Assembly: GCA_020029615.1 (NCBI GenBank)
Contig: JAIBJO010000001.1
Location: forward strand, 1 to 64,000
Length of the DNA: 64,000 nt
Reading direction: 5' to 3'
Origin: Actinomycetota bacterium
GTDB lineage: Bacteria > Actinomycetota > Thermoleophilia > Gaiellales > Gaiellaceae
The notes beneath the pieces are model-generated. The model did not search any database. It was given only the letters and a program-made list of their open reading frames with translations, and was not told where the DNA came from. The translations under genes and the position numbers were made by a program. Below, in pieces: positions 35,340-41,195 of the stretch (position 1 is its first letter; each line of letters begins with the position of its first letter).

Positions 35340-35407
35340 CGCGGCTCCTCGTTGTCGAATGGTTGCCCGAGTATCGCGAAGCGCGACGCGGTCTACACTC
35401 GTCCGAC

Positions 35408-36763
35408 ATGGCGATCACCGAGTCGACCTGGTCACCCTCGTCGTGGCGCGGGCTACCGGCGGGGCAGCAGCCTCAGTGGCCCGACTCTGCCGCGCTCGCC
35501 TCCGTGCGCGAGCGGCTCAGCGGATTGCCTCCACTCGTCTTTGCCGGCGAGGCGCGGGCGCTCCTTGCGGCCCTCGGCGAGGTCTGCGAAGGGCGAGCCT
35601 TCCTGCTCCAGGCCGGCGACTGCGTCGAGTCGTTCCGCGACGTCTCGGCGCCGGCGATCCGCGAGAAGCTCAAGGTGATGCTCCAGATGTCGGCCGTGCT
35701 GACGTACGGCGCAACGTTGCCCGTGGTCAAAGTGGGCCGCATCGCGGGCCAGTTCGCAAAGCCTCGCAGCGGGCCGACCGAGGTCGTCGACGGTGTCGAG
35801 ATCCCCTCGTTTCGCGGGCATGTCGTCCACTCCGACGAGCCGACGCCAGAGGCACGAGTCCCGGATCCGGAGCGGATGATCCACGGCTACTACCAGGCTG
35901 CATCGACCCTGAACCTGCTACGCGCCTTTACGAAGGGTGGCTTCGCGGACCTGACCCACGTGCATACCTGGAATCGAGAGTTCGTCGCGAGCGCTCCATC
36001 CGGGCAGCGCTACGAAGCGCTCGCGGGGGAGATCGAGCGGGCGCTTCGGTTCATGCAGGCGATCGGGATCGATCTCGCGAGGGAGCGGACACTGCACGAG
36101 GTCGACGTCTGGACGAGCCACGAGGGATTGCTGCTCGAATACGAGGAGGCGCTCACGCGCCGCGACTCGCTCACCGGGCAGCCGTACGACTGCTCGGCGC
36201 ACATGCTCTGGATCGGGGACCGGACGCGCGATCTCGGCGGCGCGCACGTCGAGTTCTTCTCCGGCGTCGACAACCCGATCGCCGTGAAGCTGGGGCCGAG
36301 CGCCACGCCCGAGGAGGCCGTGGCGCTCGCGGAGCGGCTGAACCCTGACCGAATCCCCGGCCGGCTCACGTTCATCACGCGCATGGGGGCGAAGCATGCG
36401 GGCGACGCGCTTCCGCCACTCCTTCGAGCAGTGCGCGAGTCGGGTGCGCCCGTCGTCTGGGTGTGCGATCCGATGCACGGCAACCTCGTCCGCACGCCCT
36501 CGGGCACGAAGACGCGACACTTCGAGGCGATCATGGACGAGCTCCAGGTGTTCTTCGCCGTTCACCGCGAGGCCGGCTCATGGCCCGGCGGAGTGCATCT
36601 GGAGTTCACGGGTGAGGACGTGACGGAGTGCCTCGGGGGCTCCGAGGCAGTGCTCGAGGAGCAGCTCGACCACCGCTACGAGACGCTTTGCGATCCGCGC
36701 CTGAATGGCCGCCAGTCGCTCGACCTCGCATTTCGCGTCGCCGAGCTCATGCGAGCGGTCTGA
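35408..36763 (+). CDS. Class II 3-deoxy-7-phosphoheptulonate synthase
   Basis: LLQAGDCVESFRDVSAPAIREKLKVMLQMSAVLTYGATLPVVKVGRIAGQFAKPRS. Confidence 0.95.
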   Translation: MAITESTWSPSSWRGLPAGQQPQWPDSAALASVRERLSGLPPLVFAGEARALLAALGEVCEGRAFLLQAGDCVESFRDVSAPAIREKLKVMLQMSAVLTYGATLPVVKVGRIAGQFAKPRSGPTEVVDGVEIPSFRGHVVHSDEPTPEARVPDPERMIHGYYQAASTLNLLRAFTKGGFADLTHVHTWNREFVASAPSGQRYEALAGEIERALRFMQAIGIDLARERTLHEVDVWTSHEGLLLEYEEALTRRDSLTGQPYDCSAHMLWIGDRTRDLGGAHVEFFSGVDNPIAVKLGPSATPEEAVALAERLNPDRIPGRLTFITRMGAKHAGDALPPLLRAVRESGAPVVWVCDPMHGNLVRTPSGTKTRHFEAIMDELQVFFAVHREAGSWPGGVHLEFTGEDVTECLGGSEAVLEEQLDHRYETLCDPRLNGRQSLDLAFRVAELMRAV

Positions 36764-36777
36764 CGAGCGAGCCTCCG

Positions 36778-37866
36778 ATGCGGCTGGCTGTGGTGGGGAC
36801 CGGTCTGATCGGCGCATCCGCGGGTCTCGCGGCGAAGCGAGCAGGCGCCTCGGCGGTCGTCGGATGGGACGATGACCGTTCGGCGCTCGACGTCGCCGCG
36901 GAGCGTGAGGCAGTCGATCCGGCAGGGTCGCTAGCCGACGCGCTCCGCGACGCGGACGTGGCGCTCGTTGCCGTCCCGGTGGCTGCGCTCCCGGCCGTCG
37001 TCGGCGCCGTTCTGCAGCACGCTCCCGCACGCTGCGCGGTGACCGACGTCGGCTCGACCAAGGGAGCAGTGTGCGCAGCTGCCGGAAGCGACTCACGCTT
37101 CGTAGGAGGTCATCCGATCTGCGGCGCGGAGACCCGCGGCCCGGGCCGTGCGAGCGCCGATCTCTTCGAGGGTGCCACCTGGTTTCTGACACCGCTCACG
37201 ACGACCGAGCCCGACCTCTACCGGGCGGCGCACGCGTTCGTCGCATCCCTCGGGGCGCGTCCCTTCGCCATCGACCCGGAAGCGCACGACCGGCTCGTCG
37301 CCGTGACGAGCCACCTGCCGCACGCGCTCGCGAACGTCCTGCTCAACCAGGCGGGCGCTTCGCTCGTGGAGGGGAACGACCCACTGGCTACCGCCGGCGG
37401 CTCGCTCCGCGACATGACGCGGATCGCCGGGGCAAACCCGCGCATCTGGGTCGACATCTTTCTCGAGAACCGGATCGCGCTCGCGGTCGCCCTTGCCGAG
37501 CACCGCCGCCGCGTTGAGCAGCTCGAGACCGCGCTCGCCGCAGGCGATGCGGGCTTTCTCGCTCGCTGGATCGGCGAGGCGAGCGGCAACCGGCGCCGGA
37601 TGCTCGACACTGCGTACGAGGACGTCGGAGCGCTCCACCGTATGCGCGTGCACGTCCCAGACCGACCCGGAGTGCTCGCGGGGATCTTCCAGGCTCTCGG
37701 AGCCGCGCGGATCAACGTCTCGGACTTCGATCTCGAGCATCTCTCGCCGGATCGAGGCGGAACGCTGACCATCCTCGTCGGGGGCGAGTCGGACGCACTG
37801 GTGGCAGCACGTCTCCTCGAGGAGCAGGGCTACGGTGTCGTCGTCGCTCCGGTGCTCGACGAATGA
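36778..37866 (+). CDS. tyrA: Prephenate dehydrogenase with C-terminal ACT domain
   Basis: VVGTGLIGASAGLAAKRAGA, FVGGHPICGAETRGPG, VHVPDRPGVLAGIFQALGAARINVSDFDLEH. Confidence 0.92.
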   Translation: MRLAVVGTGLIGASAGLAAKRAGASAVVGWDDDRSALDVAAEREAVDPAGSLADALRDADVALVAVPVAALPAVVGAVLQHAPARCAVTDVGSTKGAVCAAAGSDSRFVGGHPICGAETRGPGRASADLFEGATWFLTPLTTTEPDLYRAAHAFVASLGARPFAIDPEAHDRLVAVTSHLPHALANVLLNQAGASLVEGNDPLATAGGSLRDMTRIAGANPRIWVDIFLENRIALAVALAEHRRRVEQLETALAAGDAGFLARWIGEASGNRRRMLDTAYEDVGALHRMRVHVPDRPGVLAGIFQALGAARINVSDFDLEHLSPDRGGTLTILVGGESDALVAARLLEEQGYGVVVAPVLDE

Positions 37867-38708
37867 GCACCCCTGCGACGACGAGCGTCGGCTACCCGGG
37901 ACGCGACGGTGCGCACAGCGCTGCCGCCTGCGACCGCCTCTTCCCCCGCAACGTCGAGCTCGTGCCCCTGCCGAGCTTCCATGCCGTCGTCGAGGCCACC
38001 GCCGAGCGCGCGGTCTCGTTCGGGGTGCTCCCGATCGAGAGCTCCCTCTCCGGCCCCGTCGCCGAGACCCACGATCTCCTGTACGGCTCTCCGCTCGCAA
38101 TCACCGCAGAGACCGTACTCCCCATCCGGCACTGCCTCGTGGGCGTCGCCGAGGTGCCGCTCGAGGAGGTGCGCGTCGTGCGCTCCCATCCCGTGGCGCT
38201 CGATCAGTGCCGCCTGCTCCTCGCGGCGATGCCGTGGGCGACTGCGATCGCGGCGCCCACCACCGCAGATGCGGCGGCGCAGGTCGCGGCTCACGCGGAC
38301 GAAAGCGAGGCGGCGATCGCGAGCGAGCGAGCAGCTGCTCTGCACGGGCTCACGGTGATCGCGGGCGACGTCGGCGACCACCCCGAGGCATACACCCGCT
38401 TCGTCTCGGTCGCGAACTACACGCGCCTCGACGTGAACGACAAGCCGTGGCGGACGGCGTTCTCCTTCGTCACCGATCACCGGCCGGGTGCCCTCCACCG
38501 CGCGATCGAAGTGTTCGCGCGACACGAGATCGACCTTCTCCAGCTCGTGTCGCGCCCGATCCCGCAGACACCGTGGCGCTACCGCTTCGACGCGGTGCTC
38601 GCGGGGCATCCGCTCGACCCCGTCGTCCGTGAGGCGCTCCACGACCTCCGCGAGCAGACGCGACACCTCCGCCTCTTCGGCTCGTACCCTGCCGAGGACC
38701 AGGAATGA
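37863..38708 (+). CDS. pheA: Prephenate dehydratase
   Basis: VGYPGRDGAHSAAACDRLFP, GVLPIESSLSGPVAETHDLL, ACT domain DHRPGALHRAIEVFARHEIDL. Confidence 0.92.
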   Translation: MSTPATTSVGYPGRDGAHSAAACDRLFPRNVELVPLPSFHAVVEATAERAVSFGVLPIESSLSGPVAETHDLLYGSPLAITAETVLPIRHCLVGVAEVPLEEVRVVRSHPVALDQCRLLLAAMPWATAIAAPTTADAAAQVAAHADESEAAIASERAAALHGLTVIAGDVGDHPEAYTRFVSVANYTRLDVNDKPWRTAFSFVTDHRPGALHRAIEVFARHEIDLLQLVSRPIPQTPWRYRFDAVLAGHPLDPVVREALHDLREQTRHLRLFGSYPAEDQE

Positions 38709-39004
38709 GCGAGCCACCCGTCGATCCGACGGTTCAGCGACTCCGGGGAGAGATCTCCGACGTCGATCGCGCGATCCTCGACGTCGTCAACGCCAGGATC
38801 GAGCTCGTCGCTCGGCTCAAGCGCCACAAAGACGAGGTCGGGCTCCCGTTCCTCGACCCGGACCGCGAGCGGGAACTCGTCGCGGAGCTCGACGGGAAGA
38901 ACGCAGGGCCGCTCTCGGCGGACGGTCTGCGCGAGCTGTACGCCTTCCTGCTCGACCTCACGAAGCGCGAGGTCGGCAGGGACGGCGCACCGGGTCCGCC
39001 ATAG
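38705..39004 (+). CDS. Chorismate mutase (AroQ type)
   Basis: RLRGEISDVDRAILDVVNARIELVARLKRHKDEVGLPFLDPDRE. Confidence 0.88.
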   Translation: MSEPPVDPTVQRLRGEISDVDRAILDVVNARIELVARLKRHKDEVGLPFLDPDRERELVAELDGKNAGPLSADGLRELYAFLLDLTKREVGRDGAPGPP

Positions 39005-39016
39005 CGTTTGCCCGCC

Positions 39017-39574
39017 TCAGCGGACGAAGTTCTCGGCCATTGTGCGACCGTCCGGCGTGAGCACCGACTCGGGGTGGAACTGAACCCCTTCGATCCGATG
39101 GTCACGGTGCCTGACACCCATCACCTCGCCGTCGTCCGTGCGTGCCGTCACGACGAGCTCTGACGGCACGTCGACCGCCGCGAGGGAGTGGTAGCGCCCG
39201 ACCACGATGTGGGCCGGCAGGCCCGCGAACACTCCCTCGCCGTCATGCTCGATCCGACTCGCCTTGCCGTGGAGCAGCGCTTTCGCCTGGCCCACCGCCC
39301 CACCGAACGCCTCGACGATCCCCTGGTGCCCCAGGCAGACGCCGAGCGTCGGCACGTGAGGCCCCATCCGGCGGATGAGCTCCACCGAGATGCCGGCGTC
39401 CGCCGGGCGCCCTGGGCCGGGGGAGACGACGAGCCGGTCCGGCTCGAGCGCGGTCACCTCCTCGACCGAGATCGCGTCGTTGCGATGCACGGTGACGTCC
39501 GCGCCGAGCTCCTCGAAGAGGTGCACGAGGTTCCAGGTGAAGCTGTCGTAGTTGTCGATCATCAGAAGCTTCAC
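39017..39574 (-). CDS. trpG: Anthranilate/aminodeoxychorismate synthase component II (glutamine amidotransferase)
   Basis: LLMIDNYDSFTWNLVHLFEELGADVTVHRND, VSPGPGRPADAGIS, GVCLGHQGIVEAFGG, GVQFHPESVLT. Confidence 0.93.
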   Translation of the reverse strand: MKLLMIDNYDSFTWNLVHLFEELGADVTVHRNDAISVEEVTALEPDRLVVSPGPGRPADAGISVELIRRMGPHVPTLGVCLGHQGIVEAFGGAVGQAKALLHGKASRIEHDGEGVFAGLPAHIVVGRYHSLAAVDVPSELVVTARTDDGEVMGVRHRDHRIEGVQFHPESVLTPDGRTMAENFVR

Positions 39575-40809
39575 GCGTACTCCTCCTCGGCCAGCTCGAT
39601 CGCCGCCTCGAGTGCAGCCAGCTTGGCGAGGCATTCATGATGCTCGGCCGTCGGCTCCGAGTCCACCACGATGCCCGCTCCCGCCTGGAGGCGTGCGACG
39701 CCGTCGGCCAGCACGATCGTGCGGAGCGTGATGCACGTATCCATGGAGCCTCCCGGCAACACGTAGCCCACGGCGCCGGCGTACGGGCCCCGGCGATAGC
39801 GCTCGAGCTCCGAGATGATCTGCATCGCCCGGACCTTGGGCGCGCCCGTGACCGTCCCTGCCGGGAAGCACGCTCGAAGGACGTCGAACGGCGTCACACC
39901 GTCACGGAGCTCGCCGACCACCTCCGAGACGAGGTGCGACACGTGCGAGAACCGCTCCACCTCGAGCGAGCGAGCGACGCGGACCGTTCCCGCGCGGCAC
40001 ACGCGCGACAGGTCGTTGCGGCCGAGATCGACGAGCATGACGTGCTCCGCGCGATCCTTCTCCGAGGAGAGCAGGCGGTCGGCGTCCCCCTCGCCTGCCG
40101 TCGTCGTCCCGGCGATCGGGCAGACGCTCGCGCGCCCGTCCTCGCAGGCGACGAGACGCTCGGGCGAGGAGCCGACGAGCGCGAGGTCGCCGAGCTCGAG
40201 CAGGAAGAGATACGGAGAGGGATTGACCCGGCGAAGCGCCCGGTAGACCGCGAGCGGCGACGCCGAGGTCGGCCGCTCCGCCCGCTGCGACGGGACGATC
40301 TGGTACGCGTCGCCCTCCCTGATGTGCTCCTGGCAGCGGCGCACCATCTCCTCGTAGCGCGCCTGCGACGGGAAACGGCGCAGAGCACCCGCATGCCCGT
40401 TCGTCGCACGGGCAGCGGGCGCGAGCAGAGGTCGCTCGAGGCGATCGGCGATCTCGTCGGCGTCGCCGGACAGGACCTCGGCGATCCCGGCGCCGTGGTC
40501 GAAGCGGACGAGCGTCTCGGCGACGACGAACCTGCTCTCCGGGAACGGAGGCCCGTCCGAGGGCAGCGGAACGGTCGGCTCGAGCCGCGCGACGTGGTCG
40601 TACGCCAGGTACCCGACCACGGGAAGGTCGAGCTGCTCCGCCTCCTCGAAGTCGACGAGACGCGAGCCCGCGCCCACGAAGGAGTTGCGCCCGAGCCGCC
40701 CTCGTTCGACGGACTCGAGGAGAAAGCCGCCGCCGTGCGTGCCACGCAGCCGGAGATACGCCCCGAGCGGGGTGTGGAGATCTGCGGGTATGGCGCTGAG
40801 TGGCGTCAT
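39571..40809 (-). CDS. trpE: Anthranilate synthase component I
   Basis: GGFLLESVERG, IREGDAYQIVPSQR, GSSPERLV, CFPAGTVTGAPKVRAMQII; leader peptide upstream. Confidence 0.9.
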   Translation of the reverse strand: MTPLSAIPADLHTPLGAYLRLRGTHGGGFLLESVERGRLGRNSFVGAGSRLVDFEEAEQLDLPVVGYLAYDHVARLEPTVPLPSDGPPFPESRFVVAETLVRFDHGAGIAEVLSGDADEIADRLERPLLAPAARATNGHAGALRRFPSQARYEEMVRRCQEHIREGDAYQIVPSQRAERPTSASPLAVYRALRRVNPSPYLFLLELGDLALVGSSPERLVACEDGRASVCPIAGTTTAGEGDADRLLSSEKDRAEHVMLVDLGRNDLSRVCRAGTVRVARSLEVERFSHVSHLVSEVVGELRDGVTPFDVLRACFPAGTVTGAPKVRAMQIISELERYRRGPYAGAVGYVLPGGSMDTCITLRTIVLADGVARLQAGAGIVVDSEPTAEHHECLAKLAALEAAIELAEEEYA

Positions 40810-40817
40810 GGACGAGA

Positions 40818-40837
40818 AAGGCCTCGTACGAGGCCTT
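40818..40837 (-). terminator. Perfect 20-nt palindrome AAGGCCTCGTACGAGGCCTT between trpL and trpE (candidate attenuator/SD-sequestering hairpin)
   Basis: Self-complementary; followed on minus strand by TCTCG. Confidence 0.65.
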
Positions 40838-40863
40838 GTGCGAAGCGGGCTCTGGGTGCGCGG

Positions 40864-40926
40864 CTAGCGCACGCTCCCGCTTCGCACCGGGTGCCACGAC
40901 CAGCTCCGAAGCGACGCGGGACTCAT
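40864..40926 (-). CDS. trpL: Putative trp operon leader peptide MSPASLRSWSWHPVRSGSVR
   Basis: 21-codon ORF with TGG-TCG-TGG, 55 nt upstream of trpE, followed by inverted repeats. Confidence 0.75.
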   Translation of the reverse strand: MSPASLRSWSWHPVRSGSVR

Positions 40927-40994
40927 CAGGCGCGAGCGTAGCGCCCCTCGCGACGGTCCCGCAAGCGCGTGAGTCGCCCTCGGCGGTCAGAGAG

Positions 40995-41067
40995 TGGGCC
41001 GGGTTGGAATCGAACCAACGACCTTGGGATTAAAAGTCCCCTGCTCTGCCAACTGAGCTACCGGCCC
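40995..41067 (-). tRNA. tRNA-Lys (TTT)
   Basis: GGGCCGGTAGCTCAGTTGGCAGAGCAGGGGACTTTTAATCCCAAGGTCGTTGGTTCGATTCCAACCCGGCCCA. Confidence 0.96.
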
Positions 41068-41122: not shown

Positions 41123-41195
41123 GCCCCCATCGACTAGCGGCCTAGGTCACCACCCTTTCAAGGTGGCAGCACGGGTTCGAATCCCGTTGGGGGCA
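41123..41195 (+). tRNA. tRNA-Glu (TTC)
   Basis: GCCCCCATCGACTAGCGGCCTAGGTCACCACCCTTTCAAGGTGGCAGCACGGGTTCGAATCCCGTTGGGGGCA. Confidence 0.95.

Follow-up and report, generated by a model that had tools for sequence, protein, structure and literature searches.

Organization of the trpE upstream region

The window analysed here, a stretch of DNA of 64,000 nucleotides, belongs to a 2.8 Mb assembly in 183 contigs whose family is represented by 103 genomes in our comparison set. On its minus strand lies trpE (39571–40809), predicted to encode anthranilate synthase component I and presumed to be the regulated gene; its best family is TIGR00564, with 407 bits against a cut-off of 518. The end of trpE is overlapped by a trpG/pabA glutamine amidotransferase gene (39017–39577, minus strand; TIGR00566 at 213.8 bits, above cut-off) belonging to the same operon. 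An aromatic-pathway cluster, which includes genes for a class II DAHP synthase, a prephenate dehydrogenase, a prephenate dehydratase and a short chorismate mutase, is located tail to tail with trpEG on the plus strand (35363–39004). The interval containing the leader described below is bounded downstream by the trpE ATG at 40809 and upstream by a tRNA-Lys gene (40994–41067) of the same strand, which 29 nt separate from the trpE -35 element, with no evident terminator in between. Read-through from this tRNA gene would yield a longer leader transcript which would not be leaderless. A tRNA-Glu gene (41123–41195, plus strand) is divergent from tRNA-Lys.

Read along the minus strand, the interval begins with a promoter-like sequence (40935–40964) consisting of a -35 element TTGCGG (40964–40959), an 18-nt spacer and a -10 element TACGCT (40940–40935). 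Eight nucleotides further lies the ATG of a leader ORF of 20 codons plus stop (trpL, 40864–40926), whose predicted product is MSPASLRSWSWHPVRSGSVR and whose Trp codons are the ninth (40902–40900) and eleventh (40896–40894). Three segments of this region can be distinguished by their pairing potential. Region 1 (40905–40921), at the 5′ end of the leader, covers codons 2–7 and can pair with region 2, an arrangement in which the Trp codons form the loop. Region 2 (GTGCGAAGCGGG, 40876–40887) corresponds to the codons V-R-S-G and is also the 5′ arm of a second potential structure, here called hairpin A, whose 3′ arm, region 3 (CCCGCTTCGCAC, 40838–40849), is its perfect complement. Hairpin A is followed, with a gap of 0 nt, by a terminator-like hairpin composed of the 20-nt palindrome AAGGCCTCGTACGAGGCCTT (AAGGCCTC-GTAC-GAGGCCTT; 40818–40837), then by TCTCGTCC and the trpE start. 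A degenerate U-tract, TTTCTCGT, occupies 40812–40819; at this place the relatives typically have TTTTT or longer.

Most of these elements had been proposed in a preliminary description of the sequence, and they stand as described: the unannotated ORF with its W-S-W motif upstream of trpE is correct to the base, the promoter-like sequence is present, the 12-nt inverted repeat is perfect with its 5′ arm in the V-R-S-G codons, and the perfect palindrome ends 8 nt 5′ of the trpE ATG.

Significance of the signal within the window

When both strands of the 64 kb are considered, the leader is the sole ORF of 15–30 aa with at least two Trp codons and a TANNNT sequence 6–10 nt upstream. Each hairpin alone is unremarkable since several repeats and palindromes of this kind occur in the window, which contains 10 perfect 12-nt inverted repeats where 1.25 would be expected, and two 20-nt palindromes where 0.6 would be. 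The fold of the leader RNA as a whole has a z-score of -4.3, and 0 of 200 shuffled sequences were equally stable.

Generic scans of the window for sigma-70 promoters and for terminators called neither at the leader, probably because of the GC content. The window promoter and terminator are credible only because of the relatives described below. A search of Rfam returned no match to the leader: the Trp_leader model (RF00513) gave no hit above its gathering score, and the matches in the window were limited to four tRNAs.

Conservation of the leader, Trp codons and promoter in the family

We inspected the 83 trpE loci of the same family in which the match reached the gene start. A leader is present at 72 of them, in every case before trpE; these loci are related, so that the counts given here and below are of non-independent events, and several of the assemblies are fragmentary. 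The predicted peptides are 19–26 aa long with two to four Trp residues each, in arrangements such as W-A-W, W-W-x-W and W-x-W-x-W, and they start with ATG (64 leaders) or GTG (8 leaders). A TANNNT sequence ends 6–10 nt before the start codon in 72/72, this element being part of the rule by which leaders were selected. The -35 element was not selected for and is present at 16–18 nt, as TTGAC[GCA] or TTGC[GC][GCT], in about nine tenths of the 72. With such spacing the leader mRNA is probably leaderless, its 5′ end falling at the leader AUG or next to it. The suggestion made previously for the window, that transcription starts at or near the leader ATG, thus gains support from the constant spacing across the 72 leaders.

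At several of the 83 loci no leader was found upstream of trpE (L003, L005 and L007, all three from the window's own genus, and L009, L014, L015 and L071). At the first six of these, trpE sits in other gene neighbourhoods; at L007, for example, the product of the upstream gene looks like a valyl-tRNA synthetase. At L075, the promoter is kept and the leader has apparently been lost between promoter and gene, as if deleted. The other leader-negative loci are two which are cut by contig ends (L026 and L052) and one with only 177 nt of upstream sequence (L012). The main test set by the preliminary description for its proposed attenuator was a comparison with relatives, and Trp codons, hairpins, promoter and position before trpE are indeed kept in most of the family.

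Conservation and pairing of the leader RNA

Downstream of the Trp codons, the consensus of the peptides is E-R-G-G-S, and it is these codons which form region 2. The Ser codon of region 2 is AGC in 62/62 leaders, compared with only 18% of trpE Ser codons, and the second Gly codon is GGG in 60/62, compared with 21% of trpE Gly codons. Codon choice is therefore fixed beyond what the peptide needs, which implies that it is the RNA rather than the peptide that is conserved.

In an alignment of the 72 leaders, hairpin A (2:3) is paired in 92.7% of cells, and both sides of the helix are altered in 22 cells (0/500 shuffles). Shifting the partner reduces pairing to 37–53%. Compensatory variation is illustrated by the window itself and by L023. 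In the terminator hairpin, 71 cells have two-sided changes, again with 0/500 shuffles. A chance origin of the leader element, which we had considered, is rejected on the covariation of both hairpins together with the window counts given above.

In 72/72 leaders, three or more of the seven positions after the terminator hairpin are T, and usually there are five or more. From there to trpE the leaders differ in length, between 3 and 78 nt. Where the relatives carry tracts of U5–U7, the window has UUUCUCG (4 T in 7), and its U-tract appears weakened relative to the family. The earlier remark that the second hairpin lacks a long U-run is thus partly answered by the tracts of the relatives, that of the window being broken.

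The competing pairing is that of regions 1 and 2. The 1:2 duplex has a computed energy of -26.4 kcal/mol in the window, and a leader's own pairing beats shuffled pairing in 66/72 cases. It is better than 95% of synonymous recodings in 14/72, a modest support beyond that expected from coding and composition. In two leaders (L022 and L068), 1:2 forms a 12-bp helix plus the AUG. The predicted mutually exclusive pair in these leaders is region 1 (codons 2–7) and region 3, both of which are able to pair with region 2. Alternative leader pairings, 1:2 versus 2:3, thus appear possible, 2:3 being strongly and 1:2 modestly supported by the alignment.

Hairpin A and the terminator share no arm

The preliminary description had suggested folding the region for mutually exclusive structures. 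This expectation fails for hairpin A and the palindrome, or terminator, which are compatible with each other and not alternatives, so that nothing corresponding to the classical 2:3-versus-3:4 switch can be seen. The two hairpins are separated by -2 to +6 nt in 72/72 leaders (0 nt in the window). No covarying antiterminator emerged when the terminator arms of the 72 leaders were examined for pairing with regions 1, 2 and 3, and no terminator switch was seen in ensemble folds in which a ribosome masked the first Trp codon, the last Trp codon or the stop codon. The terminator is predicted in every modelled ribosome state, with a mean probability of 0.96–0.97 in the presence of a stalled ribosome. 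Since it still forms in this state, folding energies alone give no regulation.

We also calculated the occupancy of the terminator 5′ arm by folding the RNA from behind the stalled ribosome to the end of this arm, the 3′ arm being absent. Under the assumed ribosome footprint of 12 nt beyond the start of the A-site codon, on which these energy-model results depend, the occupancy has a median of 0.07, exceeds 0.5 in 5/72 leaders and is 0.04 in the window. Applied to E. coli trp, the same computation gave 0.71; applied to three Trp leaders from other families of the same phylum (L152, L153 and L159), whose terminators were picked by hand, it gave 0.91, 0.80 and 0.89. The high values in E. coli and in these three leaders indicate that the method can detect a classical antiterminator. 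An antiterminator of the E. coli type, which uses the terminator 5′ arm, was not found in the family leaders. The three control leaders (MEKQAVNHCELRWWWSLS, MKDISGKAKLHSFWWGPR; L152 and L153 from family f26, L159 from family f32) are unrelated and classical-looking: their region 3 lies inside the terminator, and their -10 element is 6–9 nt before the start.

These results bear on the possibility that the element is a classical attenuator whose antiterminator is hidden, the terminator 5′ arm being paired to region 2 or to the hairpin A loop in a kinetic, pseudoknot or triplex structure. We consider this unlikely. Region 2 is complementary to the terminator 5′ arm over 5–8 nt in some leaders (GGGAG with CUUCC), but by inspection this complementarity is missing from some clades; similarly, the energy of the region 2/terminator duplex beats its own shuffles in 55/72 leaders, yet the pairing does not covary, and only 38/72 leaders pair better with their own partner than with those of other leaders. 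A mechanism of this sort has been proposed for trpE of S. venezuelae, whose attenuation could reportedly be modelled only when RNA triplexes were included (PMC4833913). In the present family, however, 5′-arm occupancy is low in 67/72 leaders, by a test which detects the E. coli antiterminator and those of the three other leaders.

Distribution in the order and upstream of trpS

A covariance model of the leaders matches 83 of the 103 family genomes, a few of the matches being of the trpS type, and beyond the family it matches two genomes from other families of the order, which consists of uncultured actinobacteria. Two further families of this order have divergent leaders built on the same plan before trpE; MRTIPNGAWWWCMPGRDPVR and MTTGGHWWWRCVRGAAR are instances, and in each of them hairpin A is flush with the terminator.

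Secondary matches within the family precede trpS, the gene for tryptophanyl-tRNA synthetase (L115–L127, L130, L131, L133 and L135; peptides such as MTSALQTRSWAWRSERGGSLRAL and VTTPRTYWWWRSER), with a terminator in some and without one in others. Leaders of this type were found at 4/30 and 1/20 sampled trpS genes, and the trpS gene of the window's own genome is without one. Several trpS copies keep hairpin A without a U-tract terminator, which suggests that hairpin A can act alone. Two further matches (G029:C48 and G024:C1, L136 and L137) are weak and have no Trp codons; they were treated as chance.

The trpS leaders which have hairpin A and are devoid of a U-tract terminator, like the poor U-tract in the window, would also fit with mainly translational control, in which the downstream hairpin hides the trpE ribosome-binding site, leader translation opens it and termination is secondary. 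One subclade (L028, L047, L051, L059, L063, L067, L081 and L083) has the arrangement GGAGCC-TTTTTC-ATG, in which the 3′ arm of the terminator, GGAGCC, 8 nt before the trpE ATG, would double as a Shine-Dalgarno sequence. In most leaders, however, the ribosome-binding region is outside the hairpin (in the window, GAGG lies 12 nt from the trpE ATG), and the U-tract is kept immediately after the hairpin in most leaders despite the variable distance to trpE (3–78 nt). Both observations make control mainly at the level of translation quite improbable.

It is very improbable that the two hairpins simply form a tandem terminator, with a leader ORF that is fortuitous or just keeps ribosomes near. Intrinsic terminators made of clustered or double-adjacent hairpins have been reported (PMC8355165), a class which counts against the attenuator model below in that hairpin A would be expected to act in the opposite sense, and a terminator after tRNA-Lys would be sensible in this genome only. 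But Trp codons, start codon and promoter spacing are kept in 72 leaders with differing upstream neighbours, and the recurrence before trpS would be left unexplained.

A model for regulation

The locus combines a Trp-rich predicted leader ORF, a predicted terminator before trpE and alternative pairings, in the sequence region 1, Trp codons, region 2, stop, region 3, terminator, as expected of a leader-peptide attenuator, and the retention of leader, Trp codons and hairpins in the relatives strongly supports ribosome-mediated Trp attenuation. Judged from these comparisons, it is very probably an attenuator of this kind, of some form, controlling trpE(G). The earlier attribution to ribosome-mediated trp attenuation is therefore upheld in general, on the strength of what the relatives keep, and not in its classical competing-hairpin form.

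The transcript would begin at the leader AUG or next to it, and a ribosome would translate across the Trp codons. With charged tRNA-Trp plentiful, the ribosome would reach the stop codon and cover region 2, leaving region 3 single-stranded; the downstream hairpin would then close and transcription would terminate before trpE. With charged tRNA-Trp scarce, the ribosome would stall on the Trp codons and cover region 1, allowing hairpin A (2:3) to form. By regulatory logic hairpin A should then favour read-through, and we infer the direction of the response to Trp from the same textbook reasoning.

Since hairpin A does not pair with the terminator 5′ arm and always abuts the terminator, a steric block appears the likeliest route to read-through. 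The helix of hairpin A, flush with the terminator base, would take up the space within the exit channel of RNA polymerase that the terminator needs to form its last base pairs. We put this antitermination step forward tentatively and would not rate it as high as an even chance. A protein of phage P7 is known to prevent formation of the terminator hairpin by plugging the RNA exit channel (PMC6624301); there the block is due to a protein, whereas the one proposed here would be due to a flanking RNA helix and is hypothetical. The wider idea that these leaders represent a distinct design, spanning three or more families of an uncultured actinobacterial order and placed before both trpE and trpS, in which a flush hairpin would block terminator closure without competition for bases, is a possibility that we hold with considerable reservation.

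Relationship to known trp attenuators

In Streptomyces and Corynebacterium, attenuators of trp genes have been described upstream of trpE and of trpS (PMC1262725, Seliverstov et al. 2005; PMC8079986). The leaders described here have in common with these a short leader with clustered Trp codons, a terminator with a U-tract, the position before trpE and, as in other actinobacterial systems (trpL2 of S. lividans, trpS2 of S. avermitilis), a second copy before trpS in a minority of genomes. To judge from published descriptions, they are set apart by a leader sequence and an RNA motif which are unrelated. In Streptomyces and Corynebacterium, the antiterminator and the terminator share the complementary triples gGCC-rGCy-GGCC (PMC1262725), whereas in the family leaders the arm is not shared: the triple was not found in the leader alignment, which conserves GAGCGNGGCGGGAGC / CCCG..CGCTC and a separate terminator. 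In the presumed Streptomyces-like genomes of our set (L146–L148), we found no Trp leader upstream of trpE.

The similarities with E. coli trpL include Trp codons between regions 1 and 2, a stop codon by region 2, the 1:2 and 2:3 pairings and a terminator before trpE. In E. coli, however, region 3 is the 5′ arm of the terminator, so that 2:3 pairing forbids the terminator, whereas region 3 of the family leaders is separate. The E. coli leader also has a 5′ UTR and a ribosome-binding site, unlike the family leader, which is probably leaderless. Leaderless leaders are themselves known: trpL1 and trpL2 of S. lividans are leaderless (PMC8079986), as is trpL of Sinorhizobium meliloti, which starts at the AUG and controls only trpE(G) (PMC7298713). 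The resemblance to S. meliloti trpLE(G) would extend to the predicted leaderless mRNA and to control of trpE(G) only, but S. meliloti belongs to a different phylum and has classical mutually exclusive structures (PMC7298713).

The kind of regulation is thus already known; what appears to be new is the lineage, the RNA motif and the non-overlapping, flush arrangement of the hairpins. Our literature searches turned up no account of attenuation by leader peptides from Thermoleophilia, a class in which the family might be placed. The assignment of the phylum to Actinomycetota is based on another of its genomes, of 9.2 Mb with six 16S genes, in which an actinobacterial 16S probe sequence matches exactly. 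The element adds Trp sensing to an actinobacterial lineage for which we found neither described leader-peptide regulation nor an Rfam model. If the flush-hairpin reading is true, attenuation would not need competing base pairing, the central textbook rule, and searches based on such pairing would miss leaders of this type.
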